From: Tannerella sp.
GTDB taxonomy: Bacteria; Bacteroidota; Bacteroidia; Bacteroidales; Tannerellaceae
Length of the DNA stretch: 51,452 bases
NCBI GenBank assembly: GCA_031271805.1
Contig: JAISUX010000071.1
Location: forward strand, 1 to 51,452
Direction: 5' to 3'
The translations under genes and the position numbers were made by a program. A model generated the notes under the pieces. That model did no database searches and had not been told where the DNA came from. It saw only the letters and a list, made by a program, of their open reading frames with translations. Shown here piece after piece: positions 20,480 to 36,403 of the stretch; position 1 is the first letter of the stretch, and each line of letters starts with the position of its first letter.

Positions 20480-20520
20480 AAAAAAAACACGGCAGGGTCG
20501 TTGTAAAACCCTGCCGTGTT
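20480..20520 (-). terminator. Strong terminator of the SusC/SusD pair 2 operon
   Basis: Perfect 13-bp stem AACACGGCAGGGT / ACCCTGCCGTGTT with a 9-base loop; on the minus strand it is followed by a run of T. It lies 12 bases after the stop of the DUF3823-like gene and ends the operon. Confidence 0.93.
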
Positions 20521-20532
20521 CCGATTAAGTAA

Positions 20533-21216
20533 TTACTTTAACTGTACGACCGAAGACCAGATTGCCTGTTCGCGGCCGGAAGTTTTGACGCCTATACGTC
20601 CGAAGATATATTTGGCGTTAGCAACGTCGCTGCTGCCCGACAAATCAGCCGATAAAGTGTTGGAACCCACTTTTACGTCTGTAATGTCCGCACGAAAGAT
20701 ATTATTCACTTCATCAACAAACTGCGTTTTGCTGAGAATCAAATAAACCTTTTCAAGCGTAGCAGACGAAACGACCTGATTGATAGTAAGCGATGCGTTC
20801 AATGTATTGCCGGAAATCGAAATATTCGCTCCGGAAATAGTAAAGAACGGCGTTACGTTCAGAGTAACGGATGTACTGCCTTTGAGTTTGATAACAGTTG
20901 TATCGGTAGAATTTTCCCAAGGTCCGTTACCGCTAATGGTTGTCATTTTATACTCTCCGTCAAACAGTTTGGCCGTAAAAGAGCCATCCTGACCGACATA
21001 GACGGTAATAGGGTCATGCAGTTCATAACCGTCTTGATAGAGATACAGCCTGACAGCCTCGCCCGTACCGCGCACCTGAACAGGTTCGCCGTTATAAACG
21101 ACTTGTCCGAGAAGCGTCGATTCAGGCTCGTCATAATTGTCTAATCCGCAACTTGCCATTATTGCAAGAGCTGCAAGCGGAATGAATTTAAATATATTTT
21201 TCATATCTTTCTTCAT
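20533..21216 (-). CDS. DUF3823-like surface lipoprotein
   Basis: A 227-residue lipoprotein (lipobox MASC, Cys23) that follows SusD by 7 bases. Its start LLGQVVYNGEPVQVRGTGEAVRLYLYQDGYE, followed by FTAKLFDGEYKMTTISGNGPW, is characteristic of the DUF3823 family, which is nearly always found after SusD and has a two-domain Ig-like/transthyretin-like fold. Such proteins are thought to be surface glycan-binding or assembly partners of the SusCD complex. Last gene of the operon before the strong terminator. Confidence 0.85.
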   Translation of the reverse strand: MKKDMKNIFKFIPLAALAIMASCGLDNYDEPESTLLGQVVYNGEPVQVRGTGEAVRLYLYQDGYELHDPITVYVGQDGSFTAKLFDGEYKMTTISGNGPWENSTDTTVIKLKGSTSVTLNVTPFFTISGANISISGNTLNASLTINQVVSSATLEKVYLILSKTQFVDEVNNIFRADITDVKVGSNTLSADLSGSSDVANAKYIFGRIGVKTSGREQAIWSSVVQLK

Positions 21217-21223
21217 TTTTTGA

Positions 21224-23083
21224 TTATTGATAAGGGTTAAGAACTATCTTAGGATTGTTGTTTTGCCATGTCAAACTTATATAGTTGTAATAGTTCAACA
21301 TCTGGAAGTAAGTAGCGTTAGGTCTCATAAAAGACAAACTTTCGATGAAAACCCACTTGCCGTCGTTCGGGTAGCCGGGAGCTTTTACGCGATAGGGCCA
21401 GAGCGAGCGAGGACGGGCGAAGCCGTCATTGCTGTTTCCGTTCCATACCGTATGAGCCAGGCGCCAGCGTTTCATATCCCAATAACGATGATCTTCAAAG
21501 GCAAATTCAACCCGACATTCATGCACTATATTGTCAAACGTTACCGAAGTAAGCGGTTTGACGCCTGCACGAGTTCTTATAGCGTTGATATAGGATGTCG
21601 CTTTGGCATTGTCGCCAAGCTCAAAAGCCGCTTCGCAGGCTATCATATAAGCCTCGGCAATACGCATGCGAACAGCCCATACATCGGAACCGTGTCCGCG
21701 TGTACCGTTACCGACAGTTTCGTCAAGCCATTTGCGTACATAGAATCCGGTCTTGTTTACTAACTGCTCGTTAGATTGTCTCGGACCGTTTTCTGCAACA
21801 ATCAGTCTGCCGTCTTCGTCATACTGGTCAACGCCTGTACCGGCGACAACCCTTGTCGTCCATGCTCCGCCTTCTTTAATCAACTGACCGGCTTGCAAAA
21901 CTACTTCTTTACCCTTGAACATAGCGCCCGGGTAAATATAAGTAGCCCACAGACGCGGGTCGCGAGATTCGAATATCTCCGAAGCCGTATTATAGAACTT
22001 GTAATCTCCATTCTCCTGAGTTACAAACGGTTCCATCTGACCAGGCGTTGATGTATTGATAGGCTCGAATTGTTCGGCAAGGTTCACTATACCGCCAAGA
22101 TAGCTGTTATCAAGGTCTTCGGCGTGAGAGTGAGGTGCATTTGTGTTGGTAAAACCGTGCAGTATGTTCGGACTTTTATAGTCGCGGCACCAGATAACTT
22201 CCGTATTAGCGGCTTTCACCGTAGTAGCGTTATAGAAGTTTTTGGCAAGCGCATCGTAAGTATCCTCAAGCGAACGTTGCAGTTCGTAAGGCGAATTGTT
22301 GATTATATCTTCGGCAGCCGTCAGGGCTTTCTGATAATAACTTTGCGCCAGATTAGCAGGGATACCGACTTCTCCGCCGGGAGTAGTTATCGGCGTTGTA
22401 AGCTTGTTGTTATAGTTGGCGATAGAAGCCGCATAAAGCGCGGCGCGCGCCTCTAACATCCTTGCCGTCCATTTGTTGGCGCGGGCGTTATTGGCATTCT
22501 TATCGCCTGACAACATAGAATAAGCCGCCTGACATTCGCTGATGATATAGTCATACGTTGCCGCCTCGGTTGAGCGAGGAACCTGTATGGTAGTAATATC
22601 CATACCGGCAGTATAATTATATATCTCATCGTTAACAATAGGCACTCCGCCCAGACCGCGACACGACATAAAATAAACCCAAGCCCTGATAAAGCGCGTC
22701 TCGCCTTCAAAAAGCGTTTTGTTAGCCTGATTAAGAGCCGTAGTTTCACGCACTCCTTTAAGGTAGAGGTTCAGATTACGAATAAGCGTGTAGTCGTATA
22801 TTCGCCATTGGTCGGTACCGATTGTAGAACGGGTGTCCGGACCGCCATCGCATTTCAGGGCGTCGTCAACAACAAGATACTGACCCGAATCATTCGGTCT
22901 TTCACCCCAGTCCATTCTATCATAGAAATTCGCAAGCGCCGCCTTAATAAGTACCTCATCGCCAAAGACCTGGTCTTCGGTAAGAATACTCATTGAAGTG
23001 GTATCAAGAAAAGAATCGCTGCAAGAACCGAATAGCAGTGTCATGGAAGCAGCGAAAACAATTATAAAATGTTTATTTTTCAT
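21224..23083 (-). CDS. SusD/RagB-family glycan-binding lipoprotein (pair 2)
   Basis: A 619-residue surface lipoprotein with Cys21 in the lipobox (FGSC). Seen: SusD-like N-terminus (SFLDTTS, then DEVLIKAALANFYDRMDWG), the TPR-like helical core (RIAEAYMIACEAAFELGDNAKATSYINAIRTRAG) and the C-terminal HECRVEFAFEDHRYWDMKRWR signature. It begins 5 bases after the SusC stop and 7 bases before the DUF3823-like gene, a normal SusC-SusD-lipoprotein order. Substrate unknown. Confidence 0.94.
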   Translation of the reverse strand: MKNKHFIIVFAASMTLLFGSCSDSFLDTTSMSILTEDQVFGDEVLIKAALANFYDRMDWGERPNDSGQYLVVDDALKCDGGPDTRSTIGTDQWRIYDYTLIRNLNLYLKGVRETTALNQANKTLFEGETRFIRAWVYFMSCRGLGGVPIVNDEIYNYTAGMDITTIQVPRSTEAATYDYIISECQAAYSMLSGDKNANNARANKWTARMLEARAALYAASIANYNNKLTTPITTPGGEVGIPANLAQSYYQKALTAAEDIINNSPYELQRSLEDTYDALAKNFYNATTVKAANTEVIWCRDYKSPNILHGFTNTNAPHSHAEDLDNSYLGGIVNLAEQFEPINTSTPGQMEPFVTQENGDYKFYNTASEIFESRDPRLWATYIYPGAMFKGKEVVLQAGQLIKEGGAWTTRVVAGTGVDQYDEDGRLIVAENGPRQSNEQLVNKTGFYVRKWLDETVGNGTRGHGSDVWAVRMRIAEAYMIACEAAFELGDNAKATSYINAIRTRAGVKPLTSVTFDNIVHECRVEFAFEDHRYWDMKRWRLAHTVWNGNSNDGFARPRSLWPYRVKAPGYPNDGKWVFIESLSFMRPNATYFQMLNYYNYISLTWQNNNPKIVLNPYQ

Positions 23084-23088
23084 ATTCT

Positions 23089-26000
23089 TTAAAATTTAAC
23101 ATTTAGACCAAAATTAATAACTCGAGTAGTAGGATAAGTCAGACCGTTAGTATCAGCGATTTCAGGGTCTATACCTACAACATTGGCAAGGCTAAAGACG
23201 TTTGTACCGGAAATATAAAGCCTCAGACCTTCAAGATATATCTTATTAAGGAATGATTTCGGCACGTTATAACCTAATTCCAAATTACGCATTTTCACGT
23301 ATGTAACATTCTTTTTCCAGAAAGTGCTGTTCCAATAGTTACTGTGCGAGCTGTTACCAATCAGAAGTGTAGGATACTTACCGGGGATAAGCGCGCTGTT
23401 AGCATCCCAGATATCGGCAAGATGCCATGTGTCGCCCATATAGTAGGCGGCATTATTGCCTCCGTCGTGGAACGGATTACGCTGTTCATAGTCCTGATAC
23501 CATGAGTACAGTGTACCGCCGGTAAAATCTATTGCAACATCGAAGCCCTTCCATGTCGCTCCCAGATTGAGGGCGAAGTTCATGATAGGCGTCGAACCCT
23601 CGCGGTAACCAACCGGACGTTCGTCCATACTATTGATAATGCCGTCGCCGTTGACATCCCTGTATTTAATGTCGCCCGGACGAAGGGTTTTGTTACCCTG
23701 ACGGTCATTGTCGATCGTATAATTGGCGATTTCTTCCCAACTCTCAAACTGTCCGATAGCTTCGAGACCCCAGTTGAGGTAGCCATAGCGATGCCAGATA
23801 GAATTACGGTAGTAATCCCAGGAGTTGCTGCGTCGCGGTTTATATTGTTCCCAGTCATAGAAACGCGAATAAGTAAGGTTAGCGCCTATGCGATACGTCA
23901 TATCTCCTATTTTATCGTTCCAGTTAGTCTGAAATTCCCATCCTAATTGGACGTCGGATGCAAGGTTTTCGTCCGGAAGGGAAATACCCGCTTCCGTAGG
24001 CACGAGGACGTCATAACGAGATGCGGCAAGACCTTTACGGATACGGCGGAAGAAGTCGGCTTGTCCCGTTAGACGCTGGTTAAGGAAAGCTACGTCTATA
24101 CCAACATCAAACATATAAGCCTTTATCCACGAAAGCGTTGTAACGGGCATACCGCGGTCGCGCACACCTATAATGTAAGAGTCGTCAATAATCGCACCTC
24201 CCTGATTGTATGAATAACCGCCCATATAATTATAGTCGCTGCCTATGTCATCACTACCGGTTAAACCGTAAGAAGCGCGTATTTTCAAGTCGTTGAGGAT
24301 TTGTTTAAGCGAGCTGTCTTCATAGAAAGACTCTTGCGAGATTCTCCACCCCGCCGAAACAGACGGGAACAGACCCCAACGCTGACCTTTCTGGAAACGG
24401 TACGAACCGTCGTATCGTCCCTGCACATCTATCATATACTTGTCGGCATAGTCATAATGTACGTGTCCGATATAACCCAGACGCGCCTGTTGAGTATTCT
24501 CATCATTATACGTGTCGAGGTCGGCGATATAAATCAAATGCAGCGCGTTTGCCTTGGGGTATGAATGAACCCACACAGACCTGTGGTCGCGCGACCAGGC
24601 TTCCATACCTACCTGAGCGTTTACCGAATGGTCGCCGAACTTCTTGCTGTATTCCAACTGAATATTTGAGTTCAAATCTTCATTGTACGCAGTTGTGCGT
24701 TCGCGCCATGGGTTTTGATTTTCAAAAATAACCGGATAGGTATCCGTAGCTTCGTCATAGCCGTACAGCTTATACGTATATTCCTGATTATCATGATGAT
24801 TATAAGCGAAATAATATCCAACAAGCATTTTAGCCTTCAAACCTTCAAGAATCTGGTACTCGGCGTTTGCCTGAAGCTGGGCTACACGCCACATGTTTTC
24901 CATCTTACCTGACAATTCATAGTTGAGCCACGCCATATTTGTTTCGTTACTCGGACCTGTATTTGTCGGATACAACGGATTATCATTGGCGTAAGGACGC
25001 CTGGTAGGCAAGTTTCTATAAACTCCGTAACGCGGCATCCACAAGTCGTCACCCTGCGGAACGCCGGGGTTGATCCTGTATTCGAGACGTCCGTTCATGT
25101 TGGCGCCTACTTTCAGTTTGTCGGTAATCTTGGACTCAATATTCATTTGAACATTTGAACGCTCAAAACCGCCATAGTTCAAAATAGCGTTGTCGGCCGT
25201 CAAGTGTCCTATGGAAATGTAATAACTTGTTTTGTCGCTACCGCCGGAAATATTCACGTTACCATAAATTTGCGGGGCGGTTCTGAAAACGAAGTCATAC
25301 CAGTCGAAGGGCACATATCCCTTTTCCGTACCCTGCTGCCATTTGGCATAGTCTTCTTTGGAATAGGTATATTGCGAGCCTGTTTTGCCCTGTAATGTTT
25401 CCGACTGGATATAGTTCTTGACATAGGTAACAGCGTCGGCGGGACGCGGAAAATTACTCAAACTCTGGAAGCCGTAATAAGCATTGACGGACACGGTGTT
25501 ACGTGTGTTCGTCTGTCCTTTCTTCGTTGTTATTACCACAACTCCGTTAGAAGCCCGCACACCGTAGATAGCCGCCGAAGCGTCTTTTAGGATAGATATG
25601 GACTCGATGTCATAGAAGTTGACATTGTTGAACTGTCCTTCATCGCTCACCACACCGTCGATAACGTACAGTGGAGTACCCATGTTACGTATCTGGATAG
25701 CAGTGCCATTACCCGGACGACCGTCGGTTTGGCGGCTGTTGATACCGGCCATTTTGCCGACCAAAGCGCCGGAAGCAGTCGTTGCCAAAGAGCGGCTAAT
25801 CTCCTTGTCTCCGATAGCGGTAATAGCGCCTGTAAGGGTCAGCTTCTTCTGCGCCAGACCGAAACCGGTAACAACCACTTCGTCAAGCGCCTGTGCATCT
25901 TCTACTAAAGTTATCACAAGCGTTGTAGAAGTGACGGTAACGGTTTGTTTCACATATCCTATATAGGACACTTCCAATTTCGCGCCCTGGGGCACCGAAA

Positions 26001-26307
26001 TGGTGAACTGACCGTTATCATCGGTAGAAGTACCGTTAGCTGAGCTTCCCTGCTCAATAACGTTGGCGCCTATTACAGGATCGCCAAGTGCGTCGATGAC
26101 AGTTCCCTTAACGGTAATCTTTTGTTGCTGCGCTTCGTTAAAGGTAAAACCGGTCACCGAAGGACCATTCACAGTTGCCCCGTCTTTCTTCCCGTCATCG
26201 GCATGAGCGCCGTAGGGCGCCAGCAACGAAAAGGCTGCAAGAGCAATCATCATTAATGGGACTCTAATAGAGACTCCCTTTTTTGAAAAATACATTTCTC
26301 TTTTCAT
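23089..26307 (-). CDS. SusC/RagA-family TonB-dependent outer-membrane transporter (pair 2)
   Basis: A 1072-residue TonB-dependent importer. Seen: an unusually long signal region (hydrophobic VPLMMIALAAFSLLA about residues 16-30, cleavage near AHAD), the carboxypeptidase-regulatory-like domain (GTVIDALGDPVIGANVIEQG), TonB box DEVVVTGFG near residue 140, plug signature with VIDGVV and DASAAIYGVRASNGVVVITTKKG, and the C-terminal barrel ending in NFGLNVKF. No STN domain. A 113-base AT-rich gap separates it from the propeller lipoprotein gene upstream, with no visible TAnnTTTG box, so it is probably read from the promoter at 29806-29835. Confidence 0.95.
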   Translation of the reverse strand: MKREMYFSKKGVSIRVPLMMIALAAFSLLAPYGAHADDGKKDGATVNGPSVTGFTFNEAQQQKITVKGTVIDALGDPVIGANVIEQGSSANGTSTDDNGQFTISVPQGAKLEVSYIGYVKQTVTVTSTTLVITLVEDAQALDEVVVTGFGLAQKKLTLTGAITAIGDKEISRSLATTASGALVGKMAGINSRQTDGRPGNGTAIQIRNMGTPLYVIDGVVSDEGQFNNVNFYDIESISILKDASAAIYGVRASNGVVVITTKKGQTNTRNTVSVNAYYGFQSLSNFPRPADAVTYVKNYIQSETLQGKTGSQYTYSKEDYAKWQQGTEKGYVPFDWYDFVFRTAPQIYGNVNISGGSDKTSYYISIGHLTADNAILNYGGFERSNVQMNIESKITDKLKVGANMNGRLEYRINPGVPQGDDLWMPRYGVYRNLPTRRPYANDNPLYPTNTGPSNETNMAWLNYELSGKMENMWRVAQLQANAEYQILEGLKAKMLVGYYFAYNHHDNQEYTYKLYGYDEATDTYPVIFENQNPWRERTTAYNEDLNSNIQLEYSKKFGDHSVNAQVGMEAWSRDHRSVWVHSYPKANALHLIYIADLDTYNDENTQQARLGYIGHVHYDYADKYMIDVQGRYDGSYRFQKGQRWGLFPSVSAGWRISQESFYEDSSLKQILNDLKIRASYGLTGSDDIGSDYNYMGGYSYNQGGAIIDDSYIIGVRDRGMPVTTLSWIKAYMFDVGIDVAFLNQRLTGQADFFRRIRKGLAASRYDVLVPTEAGISLPDENLASDVQLGWEFQTNWNDKIGDMTYRIGANLTYSRFYDWEQYKPRRSNSWDYYRNSIWHRYGYLNWGLEAIGQFESWEEIANYTIDNDRQGNKTLRPGDIKYRDVNGDGIINSMDERPVGYREGSTPIMNFALNLGATWKGFDVAIDFTGGTLYSWYQDYEQRNPFHDGGNNAAYYMGDTWHLADIWDANSALIPGKYPTLLIGNSSHSNYWNSTFWKKNVTYVKMRNLELGYNVPKSFLNKIYLEGLRLYISGTNVFSLANVVGIDPEIADTNGLTYPTTRVINFGLNVKF

Positions 26308-26420
26308 AATCTAAAAAATTAGTTAATAAAATGTTTTACTTGTTTAATAGTTAAAAAATACGTTTGTCTAAAAATAATTCTTTTAATTCTTTTCTTTTGT
26401 CATAGGCATAATAATTTTAA

Positions 26421-27911
26421 TTAGTACTCAGTTTCATTTATACTATTTTTGATATTTGTCTGAAGCCTAAAAGCAAGATTTTGAGCGGCGCTCGCGTCCT
26501 TTGCCTTTTTCATCACGGCATAAGATTTATTACTGATTTTACCTGTTACAAACTCAGGTATATTATATGATTTTAGCAGGTCGGAATAATACTCTGCCGG
26601 TTTTTTTTGCGGTAAGAGGAACGGCTTGGATGTTTGTCCGTCTGCATCAACATGTACAAAATAAGGTCTTGTATAAAGTCCGTCAAGCCTGCGACTGCTG
26701 AATACTACCCAACGACTGTTTGAAGACCATGAATGATAGGAATCTGCGCAATCGCTGTTGACGCCGTCAAGCATCCTTGTTTCGCCGCTTGTAAGGTCAA
26801 TAAGACAAAGATCGGCGTCTTTATGCCACAAGGGGAAGGTTCCATAAGCAGATACGGTTATTAACATAAAGCGTCCATCGGGCGAAACACGTGGAAAGGA
26901 TACGCTACAGCCTTGTGTGACGGCATTGTATAGAGTATCTGTTGTTTCGCCGAATGTAGCTGTTTCAGGATTGAAAGAGATGCTGCACAGGCTGTACATG
27001 AGGTCGTTAATCGAATCCGGCACAACACAGTTCTTGCCGCTGCAAAAATAAAGCGTCCTGCCATCGGCAGAGAATGTCGGGAAGGTCTCGAAATCGGACG
27101 TCGAAAACGTAGGAGGCGACGTCAATATAGTCTTGTTTTCAACGTCATAGACCACAACGTCTGAAGCTTTGTCAAAGACTTCAACTCGATTTGATGGGTG
27201 AAAAACTTGCGTCGTTCTGTTAACGGAAAAAGCTACATACCGTCCGGACGGATGCCATGAAGGATAGACAAGCGCCGACATAGTGTTGTCGGTTTTAGTG
27301 TTCAGAAACTCAATCTCTTTGCCGTTAATATATACTGTACCTGCATGCTTCGCCCTAAGATGGAACATCATTTTTTCAGGGTCTCGCTGACAGAAAGAAT
27401 GACAATTAATACAGTTATTATCCGTCATTTTATTCTCATATACAGCGCTTTGGTCATAGTTACATAGCTCGCGTTGATAAATCCCCATCTCATTCCAAAT
27501 AGCATAACCCGGTTCTATAAGTCTATAAGCTATATAATCATCGCAAGGATCTGTTGACACTTTTACTTCAAATTTCTTATATTCTTCATCCTTAACTGTT
27601 ATTCTGACCTCAAATTTACTTCCTTTAGCTTTGTCGGTCAAAGTTTTCCATTTCTTAGAAGGTATGACAAAGTCGCCGGTTCCGTTTGAGGTCAAAGTAA
27701 AGGCGTAGTTATCGCAACTGAATACGGCTGTCGCTTTTTCTCTTTCAATAATTGAAAAGTTAAGCGGTGCAATATTAGGTGGTATTGTTACCCCGTCGTA
27801 ATCCGGAAATATACCTGCTTCCCTGCCTTCACGAAAAAAGACGGCTCTTTCATTCGTGCAGGCAGAGAGCAAGTACGACAAAACCAATAATATGTAACAG
27901 TATTTCTTCAT
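26421..27911 (-). CDS. Beta-propeller (TolB/PD40-like) lipoprotein with a CxxCH haem-c-type motif
   Basis: A 496-residue lipoprotein (lipobox LSAC, Cys18). After an N-terminal beta region (about 20-130) comes NNCINCHSFCQ with Cys167, Cys170 and His171, the covalent haem c attachment pattern. From about residue 215 there are WD40-like PD40 repeats (YPSWHPSGRYVAFS, FPTFSADGRTLYFCS, SFPRVSPDGRFMLITV, YHSWSSNSRWVVFSS), forming a beta-propeller. The combination suggests a periplasmic or surface protein that binds haem or a metal and a ligand, but haem attachment is not shown by the sequence alone. Its start overlaps the stop of the upstream membrane-protein gene (ATGA); the SusC/SusD pair 2 lies downstream. 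Confidence 0.75.
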   Translation of the reverse strand: MKKYCYILLVLSYLLSACTNERAVFFREGREAGIFPDYDGVTIPPNIAPLNFSIIEREKATAVFSCDNYAFTLTSNGTGDFVIPSKKWKTLTDKAKGSKFEVRITVKDEEYKKFEVKVSTDPCDDYIAYRLIEPGYAIWNEMGIYQRELCNYDQSAVYENKMTDNNCINCHSFCQRDPEKMMFHLRAKHAGTVYINGKEIEFLNTKTDNTMSALVYPSWHPSGRYVAFSVNRTTQVFHPSNRVEVFDKASDVVVYDVENKTILTSPPTFSTSDFETFPTFSADGRTLYFCSGKNCVVPDSINDLMYSLCSISFNPETATFGETTDTLYNAVTQGCSVSFPRVSPDGRFMLITVSAYGTFPLWHKDADLCLIDLTSGETRMLDGVNSDCADSYHSWSSNSRWVVFSSRRLDGLYTRPYFVHVDADGQTSKPFLLPQKKPAEYYSDLLKSYNIPEFVTGKISNKSYAVMKKAKDASAAQNLAFRLQTNIKNSINETEY

Positions 27912-29779
27912 GTTGCTTTATTTTTATAAAAAACAAGATAAAACCAGTATGTATCGCCATGAGCAGATTGCATCTTATCAACAAAATCTTTAACGTTTTG
28001 ATTGTTCATATCTCTGTCGAAAGCCCTGAATCGCTGCTCTGTTTTAGTTGTTACTCCATTTCTAATCCAGAAAACAGGATTATTTTGCTCAAGCGCTATG
28101 ACCGCTTCTTGTTGATTGTTGGACAAGGTCGGCAATAGCGGCGTTCTAAAATATTTTTCTATCAGAGACCTGAATGTCTTGAGGTCTTTCCCTGCAAGCG
28201 TCAGCGCCAGCAGATACTGCATAGGCAAAGTGCAAGAGGGATTATTAAAAGCCAGCTGCTCAAATGTTTCGCGTACGGTGTTAAATACGGCTATGCCTTT
28301 GTCGCTGAATAATGCTTTTCTCTTTACTCCGAGCAGAAAATCACGTTCCACAGCTCTGTCATTGCGCAACAGCGTACGGTACTCGTGTCCTTTTTTTCTG
28401 TAAAAGAGCGTTCCCTCCATCATCCTGATATATTTCTCAGCTACTTCATATTCTCCGAAAATAAGATTTGTTTCCACTAAGCGCTGCAATAGTCGTGTGT
28501 TGCCGTTTTGCAGCGATGAAGTCATACCTTCCATAGCATATTTCTGCGCAGTACCTATATCTCCTATATGAAAATATATGTCGCTCAAGGTCATTGCGTT
28601 CTGTTGGGTGTTATCCCAAGTTTCCAACACGCTAGGCGCACCTTGTGGCGCATAAGCAAAAAGCCTGTCGCCTAATAGCCCCTTTTGAGCAAGTGCCAGA
28701 CACAACACATTCATCATCTGATTGTTATGTTTATCCGGAAAAGTTTCTATTATCTCATCCCATTGATAGTTACGCAACAGATAATCCTGATAAGCCATCA
28801 AGGGAAACAATTTCCGGTCTTTTACCTTAGTATGTACAAGAAATAGAATAAACAACACTACCTGAAGCGCTGTAAGTATATAAATTATGTTTTTCTTAAA
28901 CGGTTTAAATACTTTAAAAAGAAAGGCAGCAAGCATAACAGCGGGAAAAGAGAGCCACGACCACAGCAATAGTTTGTTGTTCAGCAAAGGGTCATAGTAT
29001 GCGGCTGGCGACAACACCAACCTTAAATCGCCTTGCCATGCAAGTTTCAACGACAGATAACCTGCCATAATCGCTGCCATTGCTAACAGTACAGTGGTAA
29101 TAAGCGTTGTAATAAATTTTTTGCTTTTAAGAAATACAATCAACAGATATAATACGGCAAACAGCATAGCAACCGAACCTGTTGTAAAGAACAGGAGCGC
29201 AAAGCCGACTAAACCTATTAGTGATTGAAACACATTATTACTAACGAAGCGAAATGATAACAATAACATGCAAAGCATCAAAATCAAAGCAACAGTGCCT
29301 TGCACCGAATAATAAATATCCGTATGAAGGAGTAAGAGCAAGCATGAAGGGATGATGCTTAATATAAAGTTTAGAGTTGTATCTGTTATCTTGTCTAATA
29401 TTTTACGAGTAAGAAAAACCGTCAGTGTAAGCAGCAAAGCTACACATATTGCGCCGGAATAAGGGATATACCACAACTGAACAATGAAACGGGCTAAATA
29501 CAAGGCGAGGCCGCCGGGCTGCATCAGCGTATCCCAAGCATAAGAACTGCTGAAGAGAAACAATTGCATTTGTTCCGCATAAAAGAAGTTGTACGAATAT
29601 GCTAATTGTAACAGTACGAAAAATCCGCTAAATACTACAATATAGTATAGCGATTGCATATAAGGAAAAACCGTGTATGTGTGCGCGTGATTGCGATCGT
29701 AGAGTCCGCAACTATCCATACCAGATCTTTTAGAGATGGCATTATTCGATAAAGTATATGTTTTTTTATCCCGACACAT
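27908..29779 (-). CDS. Polytopic membrane protein with soluble helical C-terminal half (possibly DUF6057)
   Basis: A 623-residue inner-membrane protein: about ten hydrophobic segments from residue 40 to 320 (for example YYIVVFSGFFVLLQLAY, LNFILSIIPSCLLLLLH, ITTVLLAMAAIMAGYL, IIYILTALQVVLFILFLV), then a soluble alpha-helical half with TPR-like helices (DIYFHIGDIGTAQKYAMEGM, FGEYEVAEKYIRMMEG). From memory, proteins like this are grouped as DUF6057 in Bacteroidales, but I cannot confirm it. It is the first gene of the operon, with a near-consensus promoter, and is translationally coupled to the CxxCH lipoprotein. The two probably act as a pair; function unknown. The true start may be one of the later Met codons, before the first membrane segment. 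Confidence 0.65.
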   Translation of the reverse strand: MCRDKKTYTLSNNAISKRSGMDSCGLYDRNHAHTYTVFPYMQSLYYIVVFSGFFVLLQLAYSYNFFYAEQMQLFLFSSSYAWDTLMQPGGLALYLARFIVQLWYIPYSGAICVALLLTLTVFLTRKILDKITDTTLNFILSIIPSCLLLLLHTDIYYSVQGTVALILMLCMLLLSFRFVSNNVFQSLIGLVGFALLFFTTGSVAMLFAVLYLLIVFLKSKKFITTLITTVLLAMAAIMAGYLSLKLAWQGDLRLVLSPAAYYDPLLNNKLLLWSWLSFPAVMLAAFLFKVFKPFKKNIIYILTALQVVLFILFLVHTKVKDRKLFPLMAYQDYLLRNYQWDEIIETFPDKHNNQMMNVLCLALAQKGLLGDRLFAYAPQGAPSVLETWDNTQQNAMTLSDIYFHIGDIGTAQKYAMEGMTSSLQNGNTRLLQRLVETNLIFGEYEVAEKYIRMMEGTLFYRKKGHEYRTLLRNDRAVERDFLLGVKRKALFSDKGIAVFNTVRETFEQLAFNNPSCTLPMQYLLALTLAGKDLKTFRSLIEKYFRTPLLPTLSNNQQEAVIALEQNNPVFWIRNGVTTKTEQRFRAFDRDMNNQNVKDFVDKMQSAHGDTYWFYLVFYKNKAT

Positions 29780-29805
29780 AATTGTTTTATCTTAGCTTAC
29801 GGCCG

Positions 29806-29835
29806 CAAAGATATAACATTTTTTTTAATCGCCAA
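29806..29835 (-). promoter_or_regulatory. Promoter of the membrane protein/propeller/SusCD operon (TTG-N19-TATCTTTG)
   Basis: On the minus strand TTG (29833-29835), a 19-base spacer and TATCTTTG (29806-29813) match the Bacteroidota promoter closely. It is the only clear promoter upstream of the five genes ending at 20533. Confidence 0.75.
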
Positions 29836-29891
29836 TTTTTTTTGAAAAAAACTTACGTTTAATACAGCCGACTATGTGAAAATTAATGAAA

Positions 29892-29911
29892 CGCCGATTA
29901 GCAGATCGGCG
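29892..29911. repeat. Inverted repeat between divergent promoters
   Basis: Perfect 7-bp arms CGCCGAT / ATCGGCG with a 6-base spacer in the 299-base gap between the divergent operons. It has no T-run in either direction and lies upstream of both promoters, so an operator is more likely than a terminator. GC-rich in an otherwise AT-rich gap. Confidence 0.45.
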
Positions 29912-29947
29912 CTAACGGGATGAAAATAATAATTTTTCGGCTTTGTA

Positions 29948-29979
29948 TTTGATAATGTCAATTATTGTTTGTATTTTTG
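29948..29979 (+). promoter_or_regulatory. Candidate promoter of the GH43-like gene (TTTG-N20-TATTTTTG)
   Basis: TTTG at 29948-29951 and TATTTTTG at 29972-29979 with a 20-base spacer; about 100 bases of leader precede the GH43-like start. Confidence 0.5.
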
Positions 29980-30078
29980 CCAAGTCTTCACGAGTAAATC
30001 AACTCGGCTGTACATTAAACCTTTCGACGGGGAAAGGCGGTAAATTTTACGGGATTAAACTCTAATAATATACAAACT

Positions 30079-31059
30079 ATGAGGTATTTAACATTGGCAT
30101 TGACTACTTTTATGCTGGGCGGATGCGCTACCGGCAGTAAGACGACTACGACAACAATGATGAGCGGAAATCCCGTATTCGAGGGCTGGTATGCAGACCC
30201 CGAAGGTATTATCTACGGCAAAACATACTGGATATATCCTACGTTTAGCGACAGATATGAGAAACAGACGTTTTTCGACTGCTTTTCATCTAAAGACCTG
30301 ATTACGTGGACAAAGCATCATGCCATACTCGACACCGCCGAGGTCAAGTGGGCTAAAAGAGCGATGTGGGCGCCATCGGTGATACGCAAAAACAAAAAAT
30401 ATTACCTCTTTTTCGGAGCTAATGACGTCCACGAAGGCGAAATAGGCGGCATAGGCGTCGCAATAGCCTCCAAGCCCGAAGGTCCATATAAAGATGCGCT
30501 TGGCAAACCGCTTATAAATGAGATAGTTAACGGCGCACAGCCGATAGACCAGTTTGTCTTTCGCGACGACGACGGTCAGTATTACATGTATTACGGTGGT
30601 TGGGGGCATTGCAACGTCGTGCGCTTGGACGACAACCTGACAGGACTTGTTCCTTTTGCCGACGGCGCTGTCTATAAGGAAGTTACTCCGGAAAAATATG
30701 TCGAAGGGCCGTTTATGATGCGCCACAACGGACGCTACTACTTTATGTGGAGCGAGGGCGGCTGGACAGGTCCCGACTATTCGGTGGCATACGCGATTGC
30801 CGATTCGCCGCTCGGACCGTTCAAAAGGATAGGCACAATACTTCAACAGGACGCATCGGTAGCCAACGGCGCAGGTCATCACTCGATAATACATCCCGAA
30901 GGCAGCAACGATTATTACATCGTTTACCACCGACGTCCGATAGGAGAAAGAGCTGCTAATCACCGCGCTACGTGCATTGATAAACTCACATTCGATAATC
31001 AGGGCTTTATCAATCCGGTCAAAATAACTTTTGAAGGAGTAGAAAAAAGAAAACTTTGA
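30079..31059 (+). CDS. GH43-like glycoside hydrolase lipoprotein
   Basis: A five-bladed beta-propeller enzyme of the GH43 type, a family of arabinofuranosidases, xylosidases and galactosidases. It has 326 residues with a lipobox (LGGC, Cys16). The three expected acidic residues are visible: Asp40 in WYADPEG (general base), Asp157 in PIDQFVFRDDDG (pKa modulator) and Glu209 in YVEGPFMM (general acid). It is a single-domain form without a carbohydrate-binding module. It has its own promoter, diverging from the pair 2 SusCD operon, and likely trims side chains of the same glycan. Anchored to the membrane, probably facing periplasm or surface. Confidence 0.85.
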   Translation: MRYLTLALTTFMLGGCATGSKTTTTTMMSGNPVFEGWYADPEGIIYGKTYWIYPTFSDRYEKQTFFDCFSSKDLITWTKHHAILDTAEVKWAKRAMWAPSVIRKNKKYYLFFGANDVHEGEIGGIGVAIASKPEGPYKDALGKPLINEIVNGAQPIDQFVFRDDDGQYYMYYGGWGHCNVVRLDDNLTGLVPFADGAVYKEVTPEKYVEGPFMMRHNGRYYFMWSEGGWTGPDYSVAYAIADSPLGPFKRIGTILQQDASVANGAGHHSIIHPEGSNDYYIVYHRRPIGERAANHRATCIDKLTFDNQGFINPVKITFEGVEKRKL

Positions 31060-31080
31060 AACTTTTTACGGTTTAATTTG

Positions 31081-31088
31081 TATATTTG
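31081..31088 (+). promoter_or_regulatory. Candidate -7 box (TATATTTG) for the GH42-like lipoprotein gene
   Basis: TATATTTG lies just after the stop of the GH43-like gene and about 100 bases before the chosen start of the next gene; it would make that gene separately transcribed. The -33 spacing (TTTG at 31055-31058) is too long, so this is tentative. Confidence 0.4.
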
Positions 31089-31191
31089 CAACGATTTTAG
31101 ACAGAGTTTTTTACGGACTTCGGCTGTGTCGAAAAATCAGACTAAGAAAAATAATTATCAGAAGATCCCATTACTTAAACATTTTTTCGCT

Positions 31192-33468
31192 ATGAGACAT
31201 TTAATTTTAGCAACTATCCTATCAATCAGCGTATTAAGCGCATGTTCTCAGACGAGCAAACATGCTGAGTCCTCTACGGTGAGGGAAAAAACTACGTTTC
31301 AGACGAGCGGTCAGTGGAAGCCCGTTACCGACATCAGAGCCGACGTGGCCATGGTTTATGGCGTCGGCGGCAATCCTTCGGACAGGCGCCCGGGACGTCT
31401 TACTTTTGAAGAACGCGTTCAGTCGTGGCGTGAACGCGGATACACCGTTCATTTCATGACGGGCATTGCTTGGGGCAGTTACCAGGATTATTTTACCGGT
31501 CAATGGGACGGACAGTGGCATCTTGACGAAGGTCAGGTTACCGTTAAAGGCGATACCATCTGGCACGGGCGCATGGTGCCTTATATAGTACCGTCGAAAA
31601 ACTTCCTCGAATACATGAAAGAGAGGCACGTAAAGCGCGTCATCGACGCGGGCATAGACGCCATTTTCATGGAAGAACCCGAATTTTGGATGCGCGGAGG
31701 ATACAGTGAAGCTTTCAAACGCGAATGGCAGGATTATTACGGTTTTCCGTGGCGTCCGCAACATGAGTCGCCCGAAAATACTTATTTGGCGAATAAATTG
31801 AAATATTTTCTTTATTACAGGGCTTTGGAAGAAGTCTTCACGTATGCAAAGGAATACGGCAAGAGTAAAGGAATGGACGTGCGTTGCTATGTGCCGACTC
31901 ATTCGTTGGTGAATTATTCGTCGTGGCAGATAGTAAGTCCCGAAGCAAGTCTTGCGTCGCTGCCGTGCGTTGACGGCTATATAGCTCAGGTCTGGACGGG
32001 CACGTCACGCGAACCGACTTATTTCAACGGATTACGTAAGGAAAGAGTATTTGAAAATGCCTATCTCGAATACGGTTCAATGGAATCAATGACACGTCCT
32101 ACGGGTAGAAAAATGTTTTTCCTTACGGACCCGATAGAAGATTGGCCTCGCGACTGGGCTGATTACAAAAAGAATTATCAGGCTACTTTTACGGCTCAGC
32201 TTCTCTATCCCATGATTGCCGATTATGAAGTCATGCCCTGGCCTGATCGTATCTATGAGGGACTTTACAAAACATGCGCCACTTGCGAGACCCGCGAGCG
32301 TATTCCGCGTTTTTATTCCACCCAGATGCAGGTCATGATTAACGCGTTGAACTTCATGCCTCTGTCCGATAACAAAATAAACGGTTCTCACGGCATAGGC
32401 GTCTTGATGTCAAATTCGCTGATGTTCCAACGTTTTCCGACGCACAGCCCAAAACCTGTCAATGACGAGCAGGAAGTTCAAAATCAAGGTTCGATGCAGA
32501 CCATGGCGTCTAATTACGAAGACCCTCAATTCTCCAATTTTTACGGACAAACGTTGCCGTTGCTTAAGCGAGGCATTCCAGTAAGCACCGTGCATATTGA
32601 AAATACGGGATACGAAGACACGTGGAAAGATCTGTCGGTGCTCGTGATGTCGTACTCCAACATGAAGCCCATGAATCCCGAATATCACGAGAATATAGCC
32701 GAATGGGTGAAAAACGGCGGCGTTCTACTTTACTGCGGAACGGATACCGACCCGTATCAGACGACGATGGAATGGTGGAACACGGACGGAAAAAGCTATG
32801 CCGCGCCGTCCATGCATCTGTTTGAATTGCTCGGTCTGGACGACAAAACGCCTGCCACGGGCGAATATACGTGCGGCAAAGGAAAAGTATATGTGTTGAG
32901 GGAAGATCCGAAAAATTACGTCTTGCAAACGACGGGAGACGATGTTTTTTTCGAAACCGTGAAGAAAGCATACGAAACGACGCCCAACAAAGGCTCTTTG
33001 ACGGTCAAAAACAATCTTTACCTTGAACGCGGACCATACGTTATGGTTGCCGTTATGGATGAAAGCGTCTCCGACGAGCCGTTTACGCTTGACGGATTAT
33101 ATATAGATCTGTTTGATCCCGAACTGCCCGTTTTGCAAACAAAGACCGTCAAACCCGACGAGCAGGCGTTTCTTTTCAACATAAATGCCGTTACAAACAA
33201 GAAGATTCCTCAAACGCTTGCGGGAGCGGCAAGGGTTTATAACGAAAAAACAAGCGGGAAATCGTATTCGTTTATAGCCAAAAGTCCCGCCAACACCAAT
33301 AATGTCATGCGCATACTCCTTCCAAAAGAGCCGAAGACCGTAACGATCACCAATCCCGACGGTCAACCGGCTGAAACCGGATCATATTCATGGCATGAAA
33401 CGAGCAAAACGCTACTCGTTAGTTTCGAGAACTATCCCGATGGAGTGCAGGTTGTCATTGAATGGTAG
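31192..33468 (+). CDS. Lipoprotein with GH42-like three-domain architecture, unclassified glycosidase candidate
   Basis: A 758-residue lipoprotein (lipobox LSAC, Cys18). Residues about 45-400 look like a TIM barrel: VIDAGIDAIFMEEPEFW holds Glu161-Glu162 and Glu164 at a strand end where clan GH-A enzymes carry a catalytic Glu, followed by a helix FKREWQDYYG. From about 410 to 600 is a flavodoxin/glutamine-amidotransferase-like region (LSVLVMSYSNMKPMNPEYHENIAEWVKNGG), as in the middle domain of GH42 beta-galactosidases, and a beta-rich C-terminal domain ends the protein. I do not recognise a named family; the GH42 NE motif is not evident. The start is the ATG of the lipoprotein signal; an upstream reading frame would place 38 non-signal residues before it. 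Confidence 0.6.
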   Translation: MRHLILATILSISVLSACSQTSKHAESSTVREKTTFQTSGQWKPVTDIRADVAMVYGVGGNPSDRRPGRLTFEERVQSWRERGYTVHFMTGIAWGSYQDYFTGQWDGQWHLDEGQVTVKGDTIWHGRMVPYIVPSKNFLEYMKERHVKRVIDAGIDAIFMEEPEFWMRGGYSEAFKREWQDYYGFPWRPQHESPENTYLANKLKYFLYYRALEEVFTYAKEYGKSKGMDVRCYVPTHSLVNYSSWQIVSPEASLASLPCVDGYIAQVWTGTSREPTYFNGLRKERVFENAYLEYGSMESMTRPTGRKMFFLTDPIEDWPRDWADYKKNYQATFTAQLLYPMIADYEVMPWPDRIYEGLYKTCATCETRERIPRFYSTQMQVMINALNFMPLSDNKINGSHGIGVLMSNSLMFQRFPTHSPKPVNDEQEVQNQGSMQTMASNYEDPQFSNFYGQTLPLLKRGIPVSTVHIENTGYEDTWKDLSVLVMSYSNMKPMNPEYHENIAEWVKNGGVLLYCGTDTDPYQTTMEWWNTDGKSYAAPSMHLFELLGLDDKTPATGEYTCGKGKVYVLREDPKNYVLQTTGDDVFFETVKKAYETTPNKGSLTVKNNLYLERGPYVMVAVMDESVSDEPFTLDGLYIDLFDPELPVLQTKTVKPDEQAFLFNINAVTNKKIPQTLAGAARVYNEKTSGKSYSFIAKSPANTNNVMRILLPKEPKTVTITNPDGQPAETGSYSWHETSKTLLVSFENYPDGVQVVIEW

Positions 33469-33494
33469 ATTTTAGATTTAGGATTTTAGATTTA
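33468..33494. repeat. Short tandem repeat GATTTTAGATTTA
   Basis: Two exact copies of a 13-mer with a 14-base period (33468-33480, 33482-33494), beginning in the stop codon of the upstream gene. Such ATTTTAG tracts occur between genes in Bacteroidota; no function is apparent. Confidence 0.5.
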
Positions 33495-33509
33495 TTTCGT
33501 TTTTTTCAT

Positions 33510-33517
33510 TACCTTTG
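33510..33517 (+). promoter_or_regulatory. Candidate -7 box (TACCTTTG) for cysS
   Basis: TACCTTTG 36 bases before the cysS start, matching TAnnTTTG; the -33 element is unclear. Confidence 0.55.
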
Positions 33518-33553
33518 TGGCGTAAATATAAAAAATAATCGGATTTTTTAGAT

Positions 33554-35020
33554 ATGAAACTTACGATTTACAACACATTGGCGAGGGAAAAACAGGTTTT
33601 TGAGCCGCTGCATGAGGGACGTGCGGGGATGTATGTTTGCGGGCCGACAGTATATGGCGACCCGCATCTTGGCCATGCGCGACCGGCGATTACTTTCGAC
33701 GTGCTGTTCAGGCTATTGAAACATCTCGGTTACAAGGTGCGCTACGTGCGCAACATCACTGACGTCGGACATCTTGAGCACGACGCTGACGACGGCGAGG
33801 ACAAAATAGCCAAGAAAGCGAGGCTTGAGCAGTTGGAGCCTATGGAAGTGGCGCAGTATTACACTCTGCGCTATCACAAGGCTATGGAATTACTCAACGT
33901 GCTGCCGCCAAGCATTGAACCCTGCGCTTCGGGGCATATCATTGAGCAGATTCAACTCGTCGAGGATATCCTTAAGAACGGGTATGGATATGTTAGCGAC
34001 GGCTCGGTGTATTTCGACGTTGAAAAATATAACAAAGACCATCGCTACGGAATACTCTCGAATCGCAATATTGACGATATGCTCAACGTCACGCGGGAGC
34101 TTGAAGGTCAGGAAGATAAGCGTAATCCCGTGGATTTCGCCCTGTGGAAAAAAGCGCAGCCGGAGCACATCATGCGTTGGCCGTCGCCATGGAGCGATGG
34201 ATTTCCGGGTTGGCACTGCGAGTGCACAGCCATGGGGAAAAAATATCTCGGCGACCACTTCGATATTCACGGCGGCGGGATGGACTTGATTTTCCCACAC
34301 CATGAGTGTGAAATAGCACAGGCCGTAGCCTCTCAGGGCAGCGATATCGTCCGTTATTGGATGCACAACAACATGATAACCATCAACGGTCAGAAGATGG
34401 GTAAGTCGCTCGGCAATTTTATCACTCTGGATGAGTTTTTCACAGGCAGCAACAAACTGCTCTCGCAGCCTTTTAAGCCTATGACGATACGCTTTTTCAT
34501 CTTGCAGGCGCACTACCGCAGTACGGTGGATTTCAGCGACGAAGCGCTTGTGGCGGCCGAAAAGGGCTTGGAACGTCTTCTCGAAGCATACGCTCATCTG
34601 CATAAACTTCAAGCCGCCGATGCCTCGACCGTTTCATTCGGGAACCTGCGCGAGAAGTGCGAGGAGGCTATCTACGACGACCTGAATACACCGATCGTTA
34701 TTTCGCTTCTCTTTGATGCGAGCCGTATCATAAACTCGCTTTACGACGGCAAAGGGACTATTTCGGCAGTCGATCTGGAAGAAGTGAAGTCGGTTTTCAA
34801 GATATATCTCGAAGATATTCTCGGTTTGCAAGCGGCCGGCGAGGATGTCTCCGGAGGCAATACGGAGGCCTATCGTAAGGCTGTCGATTTGCTCCTGTCT
34901 ATTCGCCAACAAGCGAAAATGAACAAGGATTGGACAACGAGCGACAAGATTCGCAACGAGATGACGGCGATAGGATTCAAAGTTAAGGATACAAAAGACG
35001 GATACGAATGGAATTTATGA
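33554..35020 (+). CDS. cysS: Cysteinyl-tRNA synthetase
   Basis: Class I aminoacyl-tRNA synthetase joining cysteine to tRNA-Cys. All landmarks are present: zinc ligands Cys29 (YVCGPTVY), Cys224 (HCECTAMG), His249 and Glu253 (HHECE); HIGH motif as HLGH (38-41); KMSKS as KMGKS (281-285). The DALR-type helical domain and C-terminal tail follow. At 488 residues it has the usual length. The next gene starts in its stop codon (ATGA overlap), so the thioesterase is coupled to it. Confidence 0.97.
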
Positions 35021-35427
35021 CAGTAAAAGATTTTTTCAAGAACGACGCTTTCGCTGCCGGTGCGGGCGTCGAGTTGCTCGAAGTGGGCAACGGTACGGCA
35101 CGGACACGTATGAAGATAACCCCCGCACATCTGAATGGCGGCGGCGTATGTCAAGGCGGGGCAATATTCACGCTCGCCGACTTAGCATTTGCGGCGGCGG
35201 TAAACAGTCATGCTCAATTGACCTACTCAATCTGGTCGCATATACAGTTTTTCAAGTCCGAAAACAGCGGTTGGCTCTACGCCGAGGCACGCGAAATCTT
35301 TAACCGAGGCCGACTTTCGAGCGCAGAAATCAGCGTCACAAACGAAGCCGGCGATCTCGTGGCCTCTTTTAGCGGGATGGGTTACCACAAAGGGACGGAA
35401 TTGCCGTTTAAAGCGATAGAAGATTAA
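35017..35427 (+). CDS. PaaI-like hotdog-fold acyl-CoA thioesterase
   Basis: A small cytosolic hotdog protein of 136 residues. Seen: [27 protein letters not shown] (residues about 31-57), the long central helix with the conserved Asp of the PaaI/4HBT family, then beta-strands ([34 protein letters not shown]). Such enzymes hydrolyse phenylacetyl- or other aryl/acyl-CoA thioesters. An ATG nine bases earlier would overlap cysS by 13 bases; the ATGA overlap at 35017 is more usual. The substrate cannot be told. Confidence 0.85.
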
Positions 35428-35433
35428 ACGCTT

Positions 35434-36306
35434 CTATTTCTTATCCTGAACAATATCAACGAGTTCGATCTCGAAAATCAAGGTCGAATAAGGCGGGATA
35501 TTACGCTGTTCCACAGAGCCGTAAGCCAATTCCTGCGGGATATAAAGTTCCCATTTGGAGCCGACAGGCATTATCGACAGCGCTTCCGTCCAACCCGGAA
35601 TGACTTGGTTGCAGCGGAATTGGGAAGGCGCGTTGTTCTTGTAGGAACTGTCAAACTCGGTGCCGTCAATGAGCGTGCCGCGATAATTCACCGAAACCGT
35701 AGAATTGTTTTCCGGAATAGCGCCATTGCCCTCGACAAGGATTTTATACTGCAGTCCCGAAGATGTTGTCACAACGCCTTCTTTCGATTTGTTGTCTTCA
35801 AGGAATTTTTTGTTTTCGGCTATGCTTGCGGCATACTTCTGCAACTTGTATTCTTCCTTGATTTTCTCAATCATGGTGCGACTGTAGGTCTCGGCGCGCA
35901 TAATCTTCATGTCCTCAGGATTCTTTATGCCGTTATAAAAACCCGAAAGAACAGCCATACGATTAACACTCTTGCCGGAATCGCCTAAAAAAATATCCCG
36001 GTTAAGATTTTTAATCCACTGATTATTAGCCATTTGAGCTATACGCATCCCTTCAAGATAAGCGACATCTTTGGGGCTGTACTTCTTACTGCCGGCTTTG
36101 AATCCTTCGTAGAAAGCGTCCATATAGGCCGTATCAATTCCGGCCTGCATGGTGAGATAATCCCTGGCGCCTTCAGCCCGCGCCATGCCGAAAAAATATG
36201 ACATAGTGTCGAGTTCGGTCTTCAACCCCGGCTTGTGAAACATATTGCATGACCCGAAATAACAACCGCCTGCAACAATCAAAACTAAAATACTTACACG
36301 TTTCAT
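35434..36306 (-). CDS. FKBP-type peptidyl-prolyl cis-trans isomerase lipoprotein
   Basis: A periplasmic folding helper of 290 residues with a lipobox (FGSC, Cys20). The first part is the helical FKBP N-terminal dimerisation region (YFFGMARAEGARDY, then helices up to about 170); the FKBP domain spans about 180-288 with SGLQYKILVEGNG, VSVNYRGTLIDGTEFDSS, VIPGWTEALSIMPVGSKWELYIP and YGSVEQRNIPPYSTLIFEIELVDI. This is the FkpA/Mip layout. It is convergent with the thioesterase gene (6-base gap) and has a TATTTTTG box upstream. Confidence 0.92.
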   Translation of the reverse strand: MKRVSILVLIVAGGCYFGSCNMFHKPGLKTELDTMSYFFGMARAEGARDYLTMQAGIDTAYMDAFYEGFKAGSKKYSPKDVAYLEGMRIAQMANNQWIKNLNRDIFLGDSGKSVNRMAVLSGFYNGIKNPEDMKIMRAETYSRTMIEKIKEEYKLQKYAASIAENKKFLEDNKSKEGVVTTSSGLQYKILVEGNGAIPENNSTVSVNYRGTLIDGTEFDSSYKNNAPSQFRCNQVIPGWTEALSIMPVGSKWELYIPQELAYGSVEQRNIPPYSTLIFEIELVDIVQDKK

Positions 36307-36336
36307 TTCTTATATTTTTATTGAATTTTCAGGCCG

Positions 36337-36344
36337 CAAAAATA
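36337..36344 (-). promoter_or_regulatory. Candidate -7 box (TATTTTTG) for the FKBP gene
   Basis: Minus-strand TATTTTTG 30 bases before the FKBP start. Confidence 0.45.
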
Positions 36345-36403
36345 TTAAATTTTGAGCTAAATTATCATTAATATCGCTCCAACAAAGGTGAATATTACAT
36401 ATT

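Follow-up and report, generated by a model that had tools for sequence, protein, structure and literature searches.

Introduction

TolB, the soluble propeller of the Tol-Pal system, is built of PD40 repeats and, to our knowledge, carries no CxxCH motif. The motif belongs with the c-type cytochromes matured by the haem synthase CcsBA (System II), and its classical sites lie in a helical turn. Import loci of the SusC-SusD type are met in relatives of Tannerella together with an extracytoplasmic function (ECF) sigma factor, a FecR-type gene and a SusC that bears an STN domain. Here we describe a locus of five minus-strand genes in a 51,452-nucleotide stretch of Tannerella sp. DNA (positions 1 to 51,452 of contig JAISUX010000071.1, assembly GCA_031271805.1; hereafter the window), in which a polytopic membrane protein of family DUF6057 and a PD40 propeller lipoprotein with a CxxCH motif, CINCH (C167-H171), precede a SusC-SusD-DUF3823 import set.

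Each of these systems resembles the locus in one respect and departs from it in another. The propeller finds its best structural matches in TolB, but is only 13% identical to it and scores 30.5 bits against the TolB model TIGR02800, whose cut-off is 343. Like a System II cytochrome it is a CxxCH protein of a CcsBA-bearing genome, but neither Pfam nor NCBIfam finds a cytochrome c domain in it and its motif falls in a predicted beta-strand. The relatives' orthologous SusC-SusD-DUF3823 sets are of the ECF-sigma/FecR type, whereas at the window locus these genes are missing and a Pfam scan of its SusC gives no STN match. Closest in the site itself are single-chain proteins (L060; L212, L213) that share CxNCH and an equivalent of His393, but differ in the tetratricopeptide (TPR) repeats behind the propeller, seen in L060 (protein at 370-2628), and in an N-terminus that is hydrophobic but shows no lipobox Cys at the corresponding position.

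The DUF6057/CxNCH-propeller module has a wide distribution and is in places fused; the literature searched neither describes it nor mentions DUF6057 by name, and gave no function for either protein. We tentatively read it, at a little less than an even chance, as a two-gene envelope module with one cofactor site, most likely for haem c attached by way of CcsBA, that would serve as a redox carrier or sensor.

A two-gene unit, fused in two genomes

The proposal that the first two genes form a real unit has held up well. A same-strand DUF6057 neighbour accompanies 112 of 123 distinct propeller copies, just upstream in 107 and just downstream in five (three further copies lie at contig edges), and in two genomes the genes are fused. 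These 123 copies, all longer than 420 aa since shorter propeller open reading frames (ORFs) were left out of the counts, comprise those of the order-level genomes and of 80 named loci, a way of gathering that enriches the set in close relatives; where loci overlap (L080/L081, L093/L094) the propellers were de-duplicated by sequence. PF19529, the DUF6057 family, is present in 26 of 198 order-level genomes, and the propeller finds matches in 35 of them at E 0.001, of which 21 are strong (E 2e-26 or better). In the family sample the propeller occurs in 100 of 118 genomes at E 1e-50, with up to seven matches per genome, and at least 560 propeller relatives are confirmed, the hidden Markov model counts having used profiles built from these same loci. 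Judged from this distribution, DUF6057 and the CxNCH propeller are a two-gene unit that recurs across Bacteroidales. The genome of the window holds a second copy of the pair at a contig end (G000:C80:1-3441, L069), with CMNCH and without SusCD on its visible side.

Both fusions are single ORFs, one of 1079 aa (L202, 12304-15543, minus strand; DUF6057 profile at residues 3-580, propeller profile at 622-1069) and one of 1088 aa (L215, 453-3716, plus strand; 1-588 and 622-1081). They come from two Tannerella-type genomes of one genus, are 66% identical, share CVNCH and differ in their linkers, and in each the next gene, some 140 nt further on, is SusC; among the locus sets compiled without L215, no ORF other than that of L202 matches both profiles. 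As far as sequence can speak to it, the fusion is the best evidence that the two proteins act jointly and that the propeller is on the side of the membrane where DUF6057 ends. The two products would then work as one envelope unit, in which DUF6057 would sit in the inner membrane and hold the lipid-anchored propeller by its soluble C-terminal half; in the two fused genomes the linker would take the place of the lipoprotein signal and join the parts directly.

The window's DUF6057 protein matches PF19529 over its full length with 452.5 bits, against a curated cut-off of 29.8, and by sequence has no relative in the PDB at E below 0.36. Its N-terminal half is multi-pass, the first hydrophobic segment being followed by a conserved Glu-Gln (E29, Q30), and a few of 63 members give weak TPR matches in the soluble half (alignment A3 took only ORFs of 540-680 aa, the first 62 of 65). 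Such features would suit a GT-C-like, TMTC-type glycosyltransferase with a TPR tail and with the propeller as its partner; we consider this very improbable, as the membrane half has no second acidic residue that reaches 70% conservation and no Pfam family besides DUF6057 matches more than two of the 63 members.

A conserved site on a TolB-like propeller

Conservation of CxxCH among homologues, on which the initial annotation had staked its interpretation, is nearly complete. The motif is found in 121 of the 123 copies, in 35 of 37 in a first set, and in 63 of 63 in alignment A2, a set chosen for close relatives (only ORFs of 440-560 aa, the first 62 of 85). The lipobox Cys, C18 in the window, is present in all 37 copies of the first set, in which C167 and C170 are each conserved in 35, H171 in 36, H184 in 35, H363 and H393 each in 33, and C290 in 27. 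The copies without CxxCH, L095 and L102, have also lost H363 and H393, each of which is kept in 33 of the 35 others (Fisher p 0.009, uncorrected for descent); this joint loss makes CxxCH, H363 and H393 look like parts of a single functional site. Among the single-chain relatives, L060, L062, L212 and L213 keep C167, N169, C170, H171 and H393, with Asp at 184 and Gln at 363, and the comparison points to C167, C170, H171 and H393 as the core. The propeller would thus offer a single cofactor site made of those four residues, to which H184 and H363 would be added in the window subfamily. Single-chain CxNCH propellers with a long C-terminus (the four above and L214) are rare, with matches in 2 of 296 phylum genomes. 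An AlphaFold model of the window's propeller (mean predicted local distance difference test score 92.5) has a TolB-like fold.

Does the propeller carry haem c?

The means of attaching haem c are at hand, and that the propeller carries it is plausible. Its own genome encodes a CcsBA fusion (ResB plus CcsA; G000:C74), and CxxCH is conserved in homologues that carry an export signal, the lipobox. In the order-level sample all 21 genomes whose propeller match is strong have PF01578 (counted by hand), against 135 of the remaining 177 (Fisher p 0.009, uncorrected for descent); in the family sample it is present in 97 of 100 propeller genomes, and in 69 of the 72 that lack NrfA. The window's own genome gave no match to PF02335 (NrfA) or PF13442, in an assembly that is incomplete and in which other cytochrome families were not searched. 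Haem c, linked covalently by the CcsBA of this genome, would be the most likely cofactor, and the module would be a periplasmic redox carrier or sensor.

A number of observations weigh against this reading, or against parts of it. CINCHSF lies in a predicted beta-strand which, in an alignment judged by eye, corresponds to strand A of the other PD40 blades. The best Foldseek matches of the model are TolB chains (1c5k, E 6.1e-16, template modelling score by target 0.55), and none of the 50 matches listed out of 1759 is named as a c-type cytochrome. In DUF6057 no His is conserved (44% is the most that any column reaches), and the protein therefore offers no b-haem ligands. The fused relative L214 has CxxCH without a match to HSW. 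Eight of the 123 propellers have no DUF6057 neighbour although they are not at a contig edge, and at three orthologous loci (L205, L209, L210) DUF6057 stands without a propeller. Three propeller genomes, incomplete or contaminated ones, lack a PF01578 match, and 12 family genomes have PF01578 but neither NrfA nor a strong propeller match; the synthase therefore has other clients, and the idea that CcsBA is kept solely for the propeller is rejected.

The same module might also be imagined with a Cys/His cluster that binds a non-haem metal, or that is a thiol site, its likeness to a cytochrome being coincidental. We hold this to be somewhat unlikely. The strand geometry of CINCHSF, the TolB-like fold, the cluster of conserved His residues (171, 184, 363 and 393), the mostly conserved C290 and the occurrence of PF01578 in genomes where the propeller was not found are all consistent with it, but it leaves unaccounted for a strict CxNCH in a lipoprotein of CcsBA-bearing genomes, and PMC8112865 reports assays of CcsBA with CXXCH-containing peptide analogues. 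Haem c, at the strength given above, stays our preferred assignment.

The module and the SusCD set

A general partnership between the pair and SusCD is rejected as a rule, and a local association is kept. Of 79 fully flanked copies of the pair, 28 have SusC or SusD no more than three genes away (on the same strand in 24), and the other 51 have neither. SusC genes nevertheless make up 53 of the 810 genes at one to four positions from the pair versus 10 of 452 further out, a threefold enrichment (overlapping loci were counted as they stand), and among the 123 copies there are 14 direct propeller-SusC-SusD or SusC-SusD-DUF6057-propeller blocks, in 13 loci. Given the 51 copies without SusC or SusD and the varied same-strand neighbours, the operon that links the pair to glycan import is therefore lineage-specific. 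The pair itself is, by the evidence of gene order, portable and slotted into varied operons; many genomes have several copies of the module, the partner of each of which would be set by the genes that adjoin it, and in Tannerellaceae one copy precedes a SusC-SusD-DUF3823 set.

Direct neighbours were taken as same-strand genes within 200 nt and of at least 150 aa, SusC, SusD and the pair left out, and the 25 commonest of 120 families were considered. No recurrent partner dominates the 86 such neighbours, the commonest families being L-PSP (6), FkbO/Hyg5-like chorismatase (5), glycoside hydrolase family GH28 (5) and DUF4369 (4). A protein of about 385 aa stands beside the pair in nine loci, among them L080 (17384-18547), L101 (7555-8688), L127, L130, L156, L158, L176 and L177; both copies scanned singly match L-PSP, and that of L080 also the FkbO/Hyg5-like chorismatase. 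Copies of the pair adjoin GH28, GH2, GH43, GH127 and chorismatase-like genes, and others adjoin genes without an evident link to import. The earlier suggestion that the ligand taken up by SusCD is bound to haem or a metal has adjacency to commend it, but nothing seen points there, and the company of GH28, GH2, GH43 and GH127 genes, as in glycan loci, makes it scarcely credible.

The history of the association can be followed among relatives of the SusCD set itself. Among the 118 family genomes, 23 others have a SusD that shares 50% or more of its residues with that of the window, and 20 of these loci were compared (G259, G278 and G200 left out). The propeller stands directly before SusC in four (L195, L197, L202, L204), and in five the order is propeller, FecR-type gene, SusC; in one the pair is divergent beside the SusC set, in three DUF6057 without a propeller precedes a FecR-type gene, in two a FecR-type gene is present without the pair, in one there is neither, and the remaining four are disrupted or truncated at the end of a contig. 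Thus the order propeller-SusC-SusD-DUF3823 recurs at four other Tannerellaceae loci, with SusC and SusD 59-67% identical to those of the window, and to this extent the expected conservation of the neighbourhood stands. Three loci of the propeller set, L112-L114, are the same contigs as L197, L195 and L204 (L112 = L197, L113 = L195). L113 is cut off within the propeller, so that any DUF6057 there is out of view, and the L112 propeller has no start codon near the expected N-terminus, so that its 344 aa ORF falls outside the 123. At L205, L209 and L210 DUF6057 alone precedes a FecR-type gene and an orthologous long SusC (sigma tested at L209 only).

SusC measures 1072-1097 aa beside the propeller versus 1137-1156 aa beside a FecR-type gene (one broken copy excluded), and STN was found in the long SusC tested but not in the short one. 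Pfam confirms the example loci, with FecR tested at L192 and L193, STN at L193 and L197, and ECF sigma at L199, L201, L206 and L209; elsewhere the assignments go by length and position. It seems that the FecR-type gene was lost in the clade of the window and that SusC there shed its STN domain, although which way the change ran is our reading of the comparison. It would be a short step to suppose that the module is a sensor and has taken the place of the ECF-sigma/FecR signalling genes of this SusCD, as the two SusC lengths and their STN content would allow, and as might be expected from L201, where a sigma gene and a FecR-length gene flank the pair, and L209, where they flank DUF6057 alone. 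We nonetheless judge it decidedly unlikely: L194 has neither FecR-type gene nor pair, another regulator may simply have taken over before the loss, and no sigma or FecR gene is among the 25 commonest neighbour families.

Organisation and control of the locus

The source assembly (3.07 Mb in 138 contigs, 86% completeness) contains the window as its contig C59, and the closest named relatives among the matches listed are Tannerella and Parabacteroides records. Five minus-strand genes between one promoter and one strong terminator, the ATGA overlap of the first two (27908-27911) and the CINCH motif had all been described in the initial annotation, and each was found again in the sequence, with every predicted ORF in its place (Table 1). 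The start of DUF6057 is probably the ATG at 29659 (583 aa) rather than that at 29779, because homologues and the PF19529 match, which begins at residue 41, favour it. TIGR04056 identifies SusC and a SusD_RagB lipoprotein follows it, as in a SusCD pair; no gene lies between the propeller and susC.

Table 1. Genes and signals of the DUF6057-propeller-SusCD locus, in window coordinates.
Feature	Position	Strand	Remarks
Bacteroidota-type promoter, TTG-N19-TATCTTTG	29806..29835	-	ends 26 nt before the first DUF6057 ATG
DUF6057 polytopic membrane protein, soluble C-terminal half	27908..29779	-	623 aa; PF19529 E 3.7e-135; hydropathy and conservation
TolB-like PD40 propeller lipoprotein with CINCH (C167-H171)	26421..27911	-	PD40 Pfam E 3.6e-13
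GCCTATG element	26401..26407	-	100 nt upstream of susC
SusC	23089..26307	-	1072 aa; TIGR04056 E 6.4e-240; plug and CarboxypepD domains (Pfam)
SusD lipoprotein	21224..23083	-	SusD_RagB PF07980 E 2.7e-42
DUF3823 lipoprotein	20533..21216	-	PF12866 (DUF3823 E 1.2e-28) and PF18003
Intrinsic terminator, 16-pair stem and T run	20484..20522	-	strong

TTG-N19-TATCTTTG is the promoter form of Bacteroidota, and from 27700 to 37900 the minus strand shows no -33/-7 pair other than the promoter at 29835-29806. In the gap between propeller and susC (26308-26420) the minus strand holds neither a TAnnTTTG core nor a terminator-like site. To that extent the claim that susC has no second promoter survives, but the argument from a single promoter is weakened by the GCCTATG element in the same gap. 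The element recurs exactly in 14 of the 16 orthologous pre-susC gaps besides the window's, in propeller-susC and FecR-susC contexts alike (L192 has none and L198 one mismatch), in gaps that otherwise align poorly. Of 15 orthologous susC genes with the element in reach, 14 have it 60-100 nt upstream; at L112 it lies only 4 nt before susC, where the ORF start was probably called too early. Within 250 nt upstream it is found for 21 of 63 susC genes versus 13 of 1053 other genes, an enrichment whose statistical test is overstated because susC genes share ancestry. In Tannerellaceae-type loci (L071, L087, L088, L111, L136 and most of L193-L210) many susC genes are preceded by it at a distance of 59-156 nt, and several copies precede what appear, by eye, to be small hairpins. 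Rfam returned nothing at gathering score for the element in seven loci; one sub-threshold microRNA match in the window falls outside GCCTATG.

GCCTATG may be part of a promoter, an operator or an element of a leader RNA, and susCD probably retains control of its own. PMC11697453 describes susC leaders of Bacteroides thetaiotaomicron as being under small RNA control; we claim no identity between GCCTATG and the FopS target treated there.

The pair and the SusCD set may also be functionally separate neighbours, with susCD run from an element in its own gap. We regard that as quite possible, if somewhat short of an even chance, for besides the near-constant GCCTATG it would account for the 51 flanked copies without SusC or SusD and for the orthologous SusCD sets at L199, L206 and L194 that lack the pair. 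It sits less easily with the order shared by four other loci, with the fused copy before SusC at L215, with the local enrichment of SusC, and with a gap devoid of both terminator-like site and TAnnTTTG core.

Elsewhere in the window, a 796 aa lipoprotein-like ORF without a Pfam match (31078-33468, plus strand) lies behind a GH43 gene.

Implications

The boldest form of the proposal would see here a new kind of c-type cytochrome, a lipoprotein in which the innermost strand of a TolB-like propeller bears a single covalent haem and a second blade supplies the His that closes the site. DUF6057 would connect it to the inner membrane, and the whole would serve as a plug-in redox module of many Bacteroidales operons and would in this locus replace sigma/anti-sigma control of SusCD. 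Taken whole, we think this unlikely. The haem idea is open to direct test, given the natural fusions, the relative fused to TPR repeats and the copies without CxxCH. If the propeller does bind haem c, gut bacteria that lack NrfA would have one reason to keep CcsBA, and some nutrient-uptake loci would gain a redox part.

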